Assembly (NCBI GenBank): GCA_022565595.1
Contig: JAIUML010000005.1
Coordinates: 124,001 to 188,000 of the forward strand
DNA: 64,000 nucleotides
Reading direction: 5' to 3'
Source: Saccharospirillum sp.
Lineage (GTDB): Bacteria > Pseudomonadota > Gammaproteobacteria > Pseudomonadales > Natronospirillaceae
A model generated the notes under the pieces. That model did not search any database. It saw only the letters and a list, made by a program, of their open reading frames with translations, and was not told the DNA's origin. This document shows, in pieces, positions 46,664 through 55,132 of this stretch; the stretch's first letter is position 1; the number at the start of each line of letters is the position of its first letter. A program made the position numbers and the translations under genes.

Positions 46664-48673
46664 TCAGCGCTTGGCTCTGCGACGCCGGCCACCGCCCTCC
46701 TGGCGGCTGAGCCATCTGGGTTCTGGCAAGGTCACCACCTTGCGCAACTCCGGATAAAGCGCTGTTTTGTGCGGGATGGCCATGGCCTCGACAAAATGCT
46801 CCTGAAAACGAGGCTCTACAGCGGTTTCCACCTTCTCGACCTTGCGCACCACCTCTTCGATTTCCGCACGGGCCGCCTTGTTCAGCAGTGCAATGCGAGC
46901 GCCCGTACTGGCCGCGTTGCCAATGGAATTCACCGCCTCCAGCTCACAATCCGGTATCAAACCCAGAATCATGGCGTACTTGACATCGATATGACTGCCG
47001 AAAGCTCCGGCCAGGCTGATGCGTTCAACCGCCGCAACGCCCATCTTGTCCATCAGCAATCGAACGCCGGCATAGAGAGCGGCCTTGGCCAGCTGAATGG
47101 AGCGTACATCGTTTTGCGTGATAGACAACCGACGCCCCTCGCCTTCATAAAAGCAATAACGAAAGGTTCGCCCATCCGCCTCAATGCGTGGGAATTGCTC
47201 AGCGAGGGAGCCGTCGATGACGCCGTCCGAGCTGAGAATACCGGCCAGGTACATCTCGGCCATGATTTCAATGATGCCGGAACCACAGATGCCAGTGATA
47301 CCCGTTTTCTGAACAGCTTCATCGAAACCAGGCTCATTGGACCAGAGGTCACAGCCAATCACCTTGAAACGTGGCTCCAGGCTGTCCGGATCAATCCGCA
47401 CCCGCTCGATGGCGCCATTGGCAGCACGCTGACCACAACTGATCTGTGCGCCCTCGAACGCCGGCCCGGTCGGGCTGGAGCAGGCCATCAACTGATGCCG
47501 ATTGCCCAACACGATTTCGGCATTGGTGCCGACGTCGACGATCAGGGTCATCTCTTCGTTCAAATAGGGGGTTTCCGAGAGAATGACAGCGGCCGTATCG
47601 GCGCCCACGTGACCGGCAATGCAGGGCAAGACGTAAATGCGGGCATTGGGGTGAATAAAGAGGTCGATTTCGGTCGCCCACAGGCCCGCCACACTCTCGT
47701 CTGTGGCCAGGGCGAAAGGTGCACCACCCAACTCGATCGGACTGACGCCGAGCAACAGGTGATGCATGATGGGGTTGCCGACCAGGGTCACTTCAATGAT
47801 GTCGGTAACGGCAATACCCGCCTCGTTCGCCGATTCAAACGCCATATCAGACAGCGCCTGACGCACCGCCCGTGTCATTTCCTGGTCGCCACCCGGGTTC
47901 ATCATCAGCCAGGAGACCCGGCTCATCAGGTCTTCCCCGTAGCGAATTTGAGGGTTCATGCGCCCTGCCGTGGCAACCACCTCCCCGCTTTGCAGGTTGC
48001 ACAGATGGGCCGCTATGGTGGTTGAGCCGATGTCTGCCGCTATGCCGAATATCTGGCCATGGAAACCTGGCCAGACAGCAGTGATGCGTTCGTCGTTGTA
48101 AACCGCCACGGTGACTTTCCAGTCGCCCTTGCGCAAGGCCGGTTGCACCTCCTGAACAACGCGAATATCTGACCACAGATCAGTCAACCGCCAATTGAAG
48201 TCCAGCGCTTCTTTCAAACGGCGCAGATCGGACGACGGCAAATGCATGTCCGGCGGTTGCACCTCGACATAATAAAGCCGCAGAACCGGATCCAGCTGTA
48301 TATCAAAGACTTCCGCCCGCTTGCGCACAATCTGCCGATGCACCTGACTTTCCGCAGGCACATCAATCAGCACATCACCCTGCAAAAGCGTGGAGCAGCT
48401 CAGCCTGCGGCCACTTTTCAGCGCACCACGACGCTGCTCAAACTTCGCCTCCACCTCACTGAAGCCACTCAGATGGTCCATCTGCGAGGTCAGGCCATGC
48501 TTGTCGTAGTGCCCTTCGCAAAGAGTGACCTGGCAACGACCGCAGAGCCCTCGGCCACCACAGACTGAATCAATATCGACGCCCAGTGCTCGAGCCGCCT
48601 GCAACAGGGGCGTACCCACCGGAAAGCGCCCTCGTCTGCCGGAAGGGGTGAAGACGACCAGTGCTTCTTCCAT
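46664..48673 (-). CDS. RACo-like corrinoid activation protein (2Fe-2S ferredoxin plus DUF4445 ASKHA domain)
   Basis: The 669-residue protein begins with a plant-type ferredoxin domain whose cluster ligands are Cys38, Cys44, Cys47 and Cys93 (VCGGRGLCGRC ... LSCSTL). A linker and a large ASKHA-type domain follow (FGIAADIGSTTIAAHLCNL, LIVDVGTNAEIVLGN, ITGICGSGIIEIMAEMY, AGAFGSHIDVKYAMILG). RACo proteins reduce oxidised Co(II) corrinoid proteins using ATP so that methyl transfer can restart. It is the last gene of the corrinoid operon, 10 bases after the methyltransferase. A start 42 codons upstream is open but overlaps that gene. Confidence 0.9.
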   Translation of the reverse strand: MEEALVVFTPSGRRGRFPVGTPLLQAARALGVDIDSVCGGRGLCGRCQVTLCEGHYDKHGLTSQMDHLSGFSEVEAKFEQRRGALKSGRRLSCSTLLQGDVLIDVPAESQVHRQIVRKRAEVFDIQLDPVLRLYYVEVQPPDMHLPSSDLRRLKEALDFNWRLTDLWSDIRVVQEVQPALRKGDWKVTVAVYNDERITAVWPGFHGQIFGIAADIGSTTIAAHLCNLQSGEVVATAGRMNPQIRYGEDLMSRVSWLMMNPGGDQEMTRAVRQALSDMAFESANEAGIAVTDIIEVTLVGNPIMHHLLLGVSPIELGGAPFALATDESVAGLWATEIDLFIHPNARIYVLPCIAGHVGADTAAVILSETPYLNEEMTLIVDVGTNAEIVLGNRHQLMACSSPTGPAFEGAQISCGQRAANGAIERVRIDPDSLEPRFKVIGCDLWSNEPGFDEAVQKTGITGICGSGIIEIMAEMYLAGILSSDGVIDGSLAEQFPRIEADGRTFRYCFYEGEGRRLSITQNDVRSIQLAKAALYAGVRLLMDKMGVAAVERISLAGAFGSHIDVKYAMILGLIPDCELEAVNSIGNAASTGARIALLNKAARAEIEEVVRKVEKVETAVEPRFQEHFVEAMAIPHKTALYPELRKVVTLPEPRWLSRQEGGGRRRRAKR

Positions 48674-48683
48674 GAGCGAGCCC

Positions 48684-53743: not shown

Positions 53744-53998
53744 CGCCTTGATGCCTCCAGGGACATGAATGTAACTCTGCAAAACAACTATCAAAGATTG
53801 TTGCCACACAGCAACATTGATTTTATGCACAGTCTTTAAATTATGCATGTCTGAAAACGACATTTCTTCTAAAGTAGCCAGCAACGATCAGGGTACCGAT
53901 GTCGCAACTGAGCAGGTACCCAGGTCCAGGACAACAAGAATGACTCAGCGCATTTTGACAGACATACAACAGCGCCCCAGGCTACTGGAGAAACTCCC

Positions 53999-55132
53999 AT
54001 GCCGACACCGACTCAGAACGATCGCCCCCAAAAAGCCACCAGCATCGGCTTCCTGTTACTCGACAACTTTACATTGATCTCACTGGCTGCGGCCATTGAG
54101 CCCTTGCGTATGGCCAATCAGTTGAGCGGTCGGGAGCTTTATCAATGGCATACCCTGAGTCCTGGAGGTGAGGCAGTGCGAGCCAGCGATGGTCTCAATG
54201 TCACTCCCGACTGCCCCATGGAGACGCCGCCGGCGTTGGACATGATCGTTGTCTGCGGTGGCATTGCGCCCTACCGTGCTGCGCGCAAGGAACACCTGAC
54301 CTGGCTCCGGCAACAAGCCGACCGACATCGCAAACTCGGTGCCATCTGCACCGGCAGTTGGGTTCTGGCGAGCGCTGGTTTGCTGGATCACTACGAAGCC
54401 AGCACCCATTGGGAGTGCATCGCAGCCATGCAGGAGGCCTTCCCTCGGGTGGACCTGTCATCACGGCTGTTCAGCATCGACCGTGACCGTTTCACTTCCT
54501 CTGGTGGCACCGCTCCGCTGGACATGATGCTTAATATTATTGGCAGAAATCATGGCAAGGAATTGGCCGCCGGCATTTCCGACATGTTCATTTACGACCA
54601 TGTGCGCAATGAACAGGATCAGCAACGCATCCCGCTCAAACACATGCTTGGTGCCAATCAGCCCAAGCTGCTAGAAATCGTTGCCTTGATGGAATCCAAT
54701 CTGGAGGAGTTGCTGACCCTGGATGAGCTGGCCAGTTACGCCGGTTTGTCGCGTCGCCAACTGGAGCGTCTGTTCCAGAAAAACCTGAAGTGCTCGCCGT
54801 CGCGTTATTACATGCGGCTGAGGCTCAACCGGGCCCGGTCACTGCTCAAGCAGAGTTCACTGTCCATAATTGAAGTGGCATCCGCCTGTGGCTTTGTTTC
54901 CACACCGCACTTTTCCAAATGCTACCGGGAGCAGTTCGGTATTCCACCGCGCAGTGAACGCCTTGGATCGCTCAGCCCATCGACTGTGGGACAGCGAGTA
55001 TTGGTCACAGCGAACGACCTGGATCTTCCGCTCGACATCAGTGCCCTACCCCCCGGCAGAGGCAGCTCGGCCTTTGAAGCCCTGGCGCAGGCTCGGGATG
55101 AACCGACCTTTGCCAGTGTGCATTTGAACTGA
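53999..55132 (+). CDS. gbdR: AraC-family regulator, GbdR homologue
   Basis: This 377-residue protein has a DJ-1/PfpI-like ligand domain (GFLLLDNFTLISLAAAIEPL, AICTGSWVLASAGLLD, FTSSGGTAPLDMMLNIIGR) and a C-terminal AraC DNA-binding domain (YAGLSRRQLERLFQKNL, SIIEVASACGFVSTPHFSK). From memory it is very close to P. aeruginosa GbdR, which senses glycine betaine and dimethylglycine and activates their catabolism; CdhR and SouR are related alternatives. The ATG follows a GGAG site. It lies beside the corrinoid C1 operon, suggesting a link to methylamine use. Confidence 0.87.
   Translation: MPTPTQNDRPQKATSIGFLLLDNFTLISLAAAIEPLRMANQLSGRELYQWHTLSPGGEAVRASDGLNVTPDCPMETPPALDMIVVCGGIAPYRAARKEHLTWLRQQADRHRKLGAICTGSWVLASAGLLDHYEASTHWECIAAMQEAFPRVDLSSRLFSIDRDRFTSSGGTAPLDMMLNIIGRNHGKELAAGISDMFIYDHVRNEQDQQRIPLKHMLGANQPKLLEIVALMESNLEELLTLDELASYAGLSRRQLERLFQKNLKCSPSRYYMRLRLNRARSLLKQSSLSIIEVASACGFVSTPHFSKCYREQFGIPPRSERLGSLSPSTVGQRVLVTANDLDLPLDISALPPGRGSSAFEALAQARDEPTFASVHLN

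Follow-up and report, generated by a model that had tools for sequence, protein, structure and literature searches.

What does an operon for corrinoid-dependent methyl transfer do beside a gene for GbdR, the activator of betaine catabolism, in a gammaproteobacterium? The question is raised by positions 46,664 to 55,132 of a 64,000-nucleotide stretch of a Saccharospirillum sp. genome (contig JAIUML010000005.1, positions 124,001 to 188,000), the whole of which is here called the window. The evidence suggests, with a probability of about 0.7, that the locus encodes the B12-dependent (MtgBCD-type) demethylation of glycine betaine and the oxidation of the released methyl group, under the control of GbdR and in place of the oxygenase GbcAB. 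A pathway of this kind was described in 2025 (PMC12478193; papers are cited here by PMC accession), and its presence here is well supported, in a GbdR-linked operon that seems to take the place of gbcAB. This gammaproteobacterium appears to strip the methyl groups of glycine betaine with a B12 enzyme, rather than with the oxygen-dependent enzyme of the two congeners sampled, and probably uses the same kind of genetic switch as they do.

Gene content of the operon

Seven tightly packed genes on the minus strand (46664-52708), the set noted in the first-pass annotation, each have a clear family match in profile searches and stand in the following order:

52010-52708, minus strand: MtgC, corrinoid carrier protein (PF02607 and PF02310; DIHDIG motif in the translation)
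51395-52003, minus strand: DUF1638 protein with invariant Cys, His and Asp residues (PF07796, 94 bits)
51096-51407, minus strand: small PF13769 protein (94 bits) with a WRDIPAQ motif, a "virulence factor" by name only
50616-51077, minus strand: MetV-like Cys-rich protein (PF12225, 93 bits)
49595-50626, minus strand: MetF2, a paralog of methylene-tetrahydrofolate (methylene-THF) reductase (PF02219, 111.8 bits; NF006396, 200 bits, under its cut-off of 453)
48684-49598, minus strand: MtgD, pterin-binding methyl-THF:corrinoid methyltransferase (PF00809; NF005719, 362 bits, cut-off 259)
46664-48673, minus strand: RACo/RamA-like ATP-dependent corrinoid reductive activase, [2Fe-2S] plus ASKHA (PF14574, 311 bits; PF17651, PF17650, Fer2, PF00111)

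The two genes that the annotation had listed as unknowns are those of the PF13769 and DUF1638 families. Some starts in the list of open reading frames (ORFs) are over-long (RACo 48799, MetF2 50695, PF13769 51470); because the likely starts read from the translations are shorter (48673, 50626 and 51407, respectively), neighboring genes overlap or lie no more than 18 nucleotides apart. The best NCBIfam model for MtgC is that of MtgC itself (NF047996, 210 bits, under its cut-off of 370), and RACo matches the AcsV-like model NF040756 at 394 bits, under its cut-off of 800.

MtgC, MtgD, MetF2, RamA/RACo and DUF1638, the partners of a Ruegeria-type MtgBCD route, are all found in this one operon, and MtgE is not among its genes. 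The MetV-like gene adjoins metF2, as in the MetFV methyl branch of acetogens, which shares with this operon MetF and a PF12225 MetV-like subunit, RACo, and a methyl-THF:corrinoid methyltransferase. No CODH/ACS gene lies within the operon, a genome-wide search for CODH/ACS not having been made.

Since MtgC, MtgD, DUF1638 and RamA-like proteins serve methionine synthesis in Phaeobacter (PMC5764234) or Ruegeria (PMC12478193), the operon could instead be part of a split B12-dependent methionine synthase of the Phaeobacter type, working towards methionine. This reading is highly improbable and was set aside because the family profile scan found no homocysteine-binding gene within the operon and the genome carries a two-gene MetH, with a homocysteine-binding protein of 361 amino acids and a second protein of 916 amino acids that holds the pterin, B12 and activation domains. 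The split MetH is located at L123 281-4061, and the MetH frames of the congeners are of similar length (917-921 amino acids).

The substrate methyltransferase

The first-pass annotation had found no substrate methyltransferase in the window and would have been refuted by the lack of any MttB-family gene in the genome (4.77 Mb, 66 contigs, 99.94% complete), but such a gene is present. The missing METHYLTRANSFERASE was located on contig C40 as the sole PF06253 match of the genome (775 bits). This MttB is of the non-pyrrolysine type, with an open frame of 528 amino acids and no internal stops. Its nearest relative in the PDB is 4yyc (761 bits), a "putative trimethylamine methyltransferase" whose function is not given, followed by 2qne (437 bits) and 9yce, a "Glycine betaine methyltransferase" (436 bits), against 133 bits for the trimethylamine methyltransferase 7xcl. 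In the alignment with 2qne, which is the glycine betaine methyltransferase MtgB (PMC9842639), 218 of 482 positions (45%) are identical.

On C40, mttB adjoins a gene for formate-THF ligase (FtfL) and a cluster for formate dehydrogenase and FdhD; the latter genes (L062 5773-11585) lie on the strand opposite to mttB-ftfL, and a PBP_like gene separates them from ftfL. Together with the operon, and leaving FolD-type steps aside, the C40 genes give a near-complete set for the proposed path from methyl group to CO2. The contig end beside mttB (L001/L062 3-368) seems to encode the C-terminal part of a maturase of the group II intron kind, and the assembly may break there because such an intron is repeated.

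GbcAB and the congeners

GbcAB was not detected in the window's genome: GbcB has no match there at E 1e-60, and the best match to the GbcA of a congener is 31% and of partial length. Among 244 genomes of the order, GbcB scores over its cut-off in 34. Both congeners analyzed (G048 and G111) carry gbcA, gbcB, gbdR, glyA, sdaA and soxB in one cluster; their matches to MtgD are only of the MetH type, and operon-type MttB was not found in them, G048 having one very weak partial match (E 7e-4). Because the congeners have gbcAB without the operon and this genome the reverse, it seems that within one genus one system has taken the place of the other at the first demethylation. The window's genome retains SoxB (80% identical to congener SoxB) and SoxA, and it also encodes two DMGDH-like proteins.

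In the window, gbdR is adjoined by metG (55183-57258). In both congeners (L133, L134), the ORFs beside metG on that side are unlike the gbdR-operon block, as judged only by ORF lengths and by BLAST against the genes of the window, so that among these three genomes the block is specific to this one at metG.

Conservation of the operon across genomes

Related genomes carry the gene set in this same order, which indicates that it is more than a chance assembly. Of the 244 genomes compared from the order, 16 have MtgD at 73% identity or more; 14 of these 16, and no others, have MttB at 68% or more (Fisher 6e-21, relatedness ignored). In 11 of these 14 genomes, mttB and mtgD lie on the same contig, no more than 20 kb apart by coordinates; the remaining three, including the window's, have them on different contigs. 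For wider comparison, the best 80 of at least 591 confirmed relatives were used (the named loci), whose titles refer to Gamma-, Beta- and Alphaproteobacteria, Actinomycetota and Chloroflexi, mostly as metagenome-assembled genomes. Annotated relatives with the same gene set are carried on plasmids of Azoarcus, Sinorhizobium and Paracoccus, PF13769 not being found in the two Paracoccus loci. A "GlxA family transcriptional regulator" is also annotated in these plasmid loci, as is a "trimethylamine methyltransferase family protein", which the Azoarcus stretch lacks. The Azoarcus locus has, in addition, genes for a betaine transporter, a DMGDH-like FAD-oxidoreductase and ETF.

The neighborhoods of these relatives bear on the substrate. 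The same machinery could act on another methylated amine or sulfonium compound (carnitine, gamma-butyrobetaine, proline betaine or dimethylsulfoniopropionate), with glycine betaine only an inducer or end product: the MttB superfamily has many substrates (PMC12478193), carnitine genes start about 4.5 kb from the operon in Paracoccus methylovorus, and the operon in G240 is adjoined by a gene with TauD and gamma-butyrobetaine-hydroxylase-like domains. A different substrate is nevertheless unlikely. The closest solved relatives of MttB after 4yyc are glycine betaine enzymes; the Azoarcus operon is flanked by betaine transporter genes; and DMGDH-like genes are recurrent neighbors, present in 12 of the 38 named loci of at least 20 kb (eight at 61% identity or more, four at 26-31%). 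Moreover, this genome lacks detectable GbcAB, and the repeat described below is common to the operon and soxB, which acts downstream of betaine.

A second, more distant RACo (52%) and a second MttB (38%) were observed near the operon of G010 (L070 4554-6644 and 1178-2725).

A conserved direct repeat upstream of mtgC

The control region and the regulators beside the operon comprise the following features:

52823-52849, minus strand: putative GbdR-type operator TGTCGT-N15-AGTCGT, 115-141 bp upstream of mtgC (matrix scan and pattern search)
52868-53884, minus strand: LysR-type regulator, between the operon and gbdR (PF03466, PF00126)
53999-55132, plus strand: GbdR, GATase1-AraC activator of betaine catabolism (NF052371, 581 bits, cut-off 480)

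For candidate operators, the sequence before mtgC and mttB (no more than 250 bp) was compared; 83 of 99 loci supplied 124 regions, some of which overlap, and the other 16 loci were left out because mtgC/mttB or the 150 bp in front were not covered. Counting strict pairs of [TG]GTCG[CT], we found 27 whose half-sites start 21 bp apart, while no other start-to-start distance between 8 and 60 had more than four. In relaxed form (NGTCGY-N15-NGTCGY), the repeat was present in 45 of 83 loci, against a mean of 1.19 and a maximum of 5 loci at other spacings; widening the half-site to NG[TC]CGY left the count at spacing 21 the same (45 of 83 loci) and raised the other spacings to a mean of 5.63 and a maximum of 12. 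Repeat density was 1.77 per kb in the upstream regions versus 0.073 per kb over all loci, and in the forward orientation the sites start 89-165 bp upstream of the start codon. The same architecture has been published for CdhR, with GGTCGC half-sites and a 15-bp spacer, and the sites of GbdR, SouR and ArgR are called very similar (PMC5806209).

The presence of the repeat was associated with that of a GbdR-like gene (at least 120 bits) in the same locus: both were found in 31 loci, the motif only in 14, the gene only in four, and neither in 34 (Fisher p 4.7e-8, a value that is optimistic because some loci are near duplicates). For 47 less redundant loci, the corresponding counts were 10, 10, 2 and 25 (p = 0.0017), and for the 59 loci of at least 18 kb, 26, 8, 4 and 21 (p 4.8e-6). 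The conserved repeat of GbdR/CdhR-type architecture seems, from sequence comparison, to be a new point concerning the control of this route.

In the window itself, the site at 52823-52849 has the best score of the 64 kb (15.6 bits) on a matrix built from 25 sites that did not include it; the second-best site, at 42525, has 14.1 bits, and 300 shuffled versions of the upstream region reached at most 10.9 bits. The second half-site at 52823-52849 begins with A, a position where only T or G was allowed in choosing the training sites and where 8 of 43 forward relaxed sites likewise have A. The soxB gene of this genome is preceded, at about 109 bp, by TGTCGC-N15-TGACGC, with one mismatch (15.45 bits). 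The strict pattern has 32 matches in the whole genome, which show nothing alone because the reversed control gives 160. A pattern refined post hoc, after the mtgC, soxB and mttB sites were seen, has six matches (control, five), namely these three sites and three inside long ORFs. A sigma-70 scan returned no site upstream of mtgC.

The regulator and points that weigh against the proposed reading

The first-pass annotation had placed a GbdR homolog adjacent to the operon. Its identity is borne out by the family model, and its position has to be amended to allow for the LysR gene, unmentioned there, that stands between. GbdR-like genes of at least 120 bits lie within 22 of the 80 named loci and 9 of 15 same-order loci, and no LysR gene similar to that of the window reached 80 bits in any of the 80 named loci. 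A linked regulator is present in 35 loci; ten of these regulators were scanned, and GbdR was the best model for each (361-468 bits).

Several observations weigh against GbdR-controlled glycine betaine demethylation as proposed here. On the enzymatic side, mttB lies outside the operon, on another contig of a draft assembly in 66 pieces; the repeat upstream of it is weak (6.0 bits, with 95% of shuffles of the window's upstream region under 7.2 bits); and the probable glycine betaine specificity of the C40 MttB clade rests on homology. A close DgcA was not found in the window's genome, the best match being 44%. Among the 244 genomes, mtgD and gbcB are not significantly exclusive (both in one, expected 2.2, p = 0.71), and on this test the idea that gbcAB and mtgBCD exclude each other within the order was set aside; the one genome with both genes over cut-offs is G102. 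On the regulatory side, the repeat is missing from 38 of 83 loci, two sites that outscore the window's, at 16.1 and 16.6 bits (L121 4285 and L123 10491), turn up in some 117 kb from elsewhere in this genome, and the ten linked regulators scanned all score under the 480 bits required by the GbdR model. In the two congeners, the gap between gbcA and gbcB reaches only 9.2 and 10.5 bits, although gbcAB is the classical GbdR target, and just 2 of 12 other gbcB loci have a site of at least 12 bits within 400 bp upstream. A second GbdR-like gene (39%) is located on contig C9.

The regulatory points leave room for another assignment of the switch, in which the pathway is as proposed, gbdR is an accidental neighbor, and control lies with the LysR protein or with a sister GATase1-AraC regulator resembling SouR, the sarcosine-responsive activator named alongside GbdR in Pseudomonas (PMC12093977). 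The repeat could belong to such a sister regulator because it is strong before soxB and glyA (17-22 bits in the congeners) and weak before gbcAB; in addition, there is the GbdR paralog on C9, and the LysR gene directly abuts the operon. Less improbable than the other alternatives, this assignment is a live but unlikely one: gbdR adjoins the operon, the linkage of GbdR-like genes and their best-fitting model favor GbdR across loci, and the gbcA-gbcB gap of G102 contains a strict GGTCGC-N15-GGTCGC repeat (16.4 bits). GbdR remains the preferred regulator and would bind the repeat upstream of mtgC.

PF13769, DUF1638 and the MetF2/MetV pair

The composition of the operon was compared in 65 core loci, defined as those of the 80 named loci with mtgC upstream of mtgD within 8 kb. 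MetF2 and the MetV-like protein were found or absent together in all 65, both being present in 27 and both absent from the compared stretch in 38. PF13769 occurs in 58 of the 65 loci, 25 of the 27 with MetF2/MetV and 33 of the 38 without; because it is present either way, it belongs with the corrinoid core and not with MetF2/MetV. DUF1638 occurs in 60 of 65, with invariant residues C9, H38, D69, C70, H92 and C93 in an alignment of 55 sequences. It is presumed to be a corrinoid reactivation or maturation factor, and a fitness link of DUF1638 to B12 methionine synthase has been reported (PMC5764234). The steady presence of both families points to two uncharacterized proteins with a part in corrinoid reactivation.

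Predicted structures of DUF1638 and PF13769 have a mean predicted local distance difference test (pLDDT) score of 94.6 and 92.1, respectively; a fold search with these models gave no PDB match at E 0.001 or better, and a faint likeness of DUF1638 to glutamate racemase-type proteins (TM 0.46) was given no weight. Nothing useful came from PDB sequence searches with either family, as protein or profile, or with the MetV-like protein.

In ten loci without MetF2, a gap of 1.3-1.5 kb precedes mtgD. Three gap ORFs were scanned (L160 9059-9958, L175 8953-9975 and L179 8943-9932), of which two have weak PF02219 matches (31.5 and 29.1 bits) and one has no match. Operons without MetF2/MetV may accordingly carry a different, very divergent MTHFR-like ORF.

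Proposed pathway and its meaning

In the proposed route, MttB/MtgB from C40 would move one methyl group of glycine betaine to the Co(I) of MtgC, leaving dimethylglycine, and MtgD would pass the methyl group from MtgC to THF. MetF2, presumed to work as a methyl-THF oxidase, would together with the MetV-like protein yield methylene-THF, and FolD-type steps, formate-THF ligase acting towards ATP, and formate dehydrogenase could finish the oxidation. RACo, DUF1638 and probably PF13769 would restore Co(II) to Co(I), and sarcosine would be oxidized by SoxB/SoxA. We infer glycine betaine as the substrate and oxidation as the direction. The corrinoid methyl route suggested in the first-pass annotation gains support from the kinship of MttB with 2qne, the failure to find gbcAB, and the GbdR/CdhR-type repeat before mtgC; its remark that no full description existed is out of date, given the genetics and proteomics published for Ruegeria pomeroyi in 2025 (PMC12478193).

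Glycine betaine is a major osmolyte, and its aerobic B12 route was described only in that year. Two points are new and can be tested directly: the conserved operator and the place of PF13769 in the corrinoid core. The text of PMC12478193 does not use the words GbdR, AraC, MetV, virulence, promoter or operator, and no paper joining GbdR with corrinoid or mtgB was seen among open-licence PMC papers. A conserved operator would link the B12 route to the betaine regulator family of pseudomonads, predicting in which genomes and when it is used, while the contrast within the genus (oxygenase in two congeners, corrinoid enzyme here) is a natural experiment in oxygen versus B12 dependence. A broader proposal, tentatively put at a little under even odds, is that in many Pseudomonadota the GbdR family is the general control of B12-dependent demethylation of betaine, acting via NGTCGY-N15-NGTCGY about 90-165 bp upstream of mtgC/mttB; that GbcAB and the corrinoid system are swapped within a genus under the same regulator; and that PF13769 is an unrecognized core part of the corrinoid machinery.

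Comparison with known systems

The closest counterpart is the MtgBCD system of Ruegeria pomeroyi DSS-3, likewise a member of the Pseudomonadota, which shares MtgB (PF06253), MtgC, MtgD, MetF2, RamA, DUF1638 and methyl-THF oxidation. With mutants and proteomics, Mausz et al. (2025; PMC12478193) showed that Ruegeria requires MtgC and MtgD both to use betaine and to make methionine; they also proposed MetF2, RamA and DUF1638 as partners and noted mtgC in marine Gammaproteobacteria. Unlike in Ruegeria, the genes here form one operon with the MetV-like and PF13769 genes, beside gbdR. Because MetH with an activation domain is present, sharing MtgC and MtgD with methionine synthesis, as in the dual role in Ruegeria, is not required here, though it may still occur; for the same reason, the two-gene MetH, this genome is of the minority kind in that study, in which mtgBCD was found in only 28 of 239 metH genomes. 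The split methionine synthase of Phaeobacter inhibens (PMC5764234) has corrinoid, pterin-binding, DUF4445/RamA-like and DUF1638 parts in common with the operon, which in contrast lacks a homocysteine-binding part and coexists with MetH.

MtgB, MtgA and MtgC of Desulfitobacterium hafniense carry out the same chemistry, and the MttB here is 45% identical to 2qne, but they do so in an anaerobe and with a different gene set, its MtgC belonging to another clade according to PMC12478193. The acetogen MetFV branch differs in that the operon here is proposed to be oxidative and contains neither the RnfC2 partner nor CODH/ACS. Finally, the GbcAB and GbdR system of Pseudomonas and the congeners G048 and G111 resembles the present one in its regulator family, its product, dimethylglycine, and the downstream SoxB/SoxA, whereas GbcAB itself, not found in this genome, depends on oxygen and releases formaldehyde.

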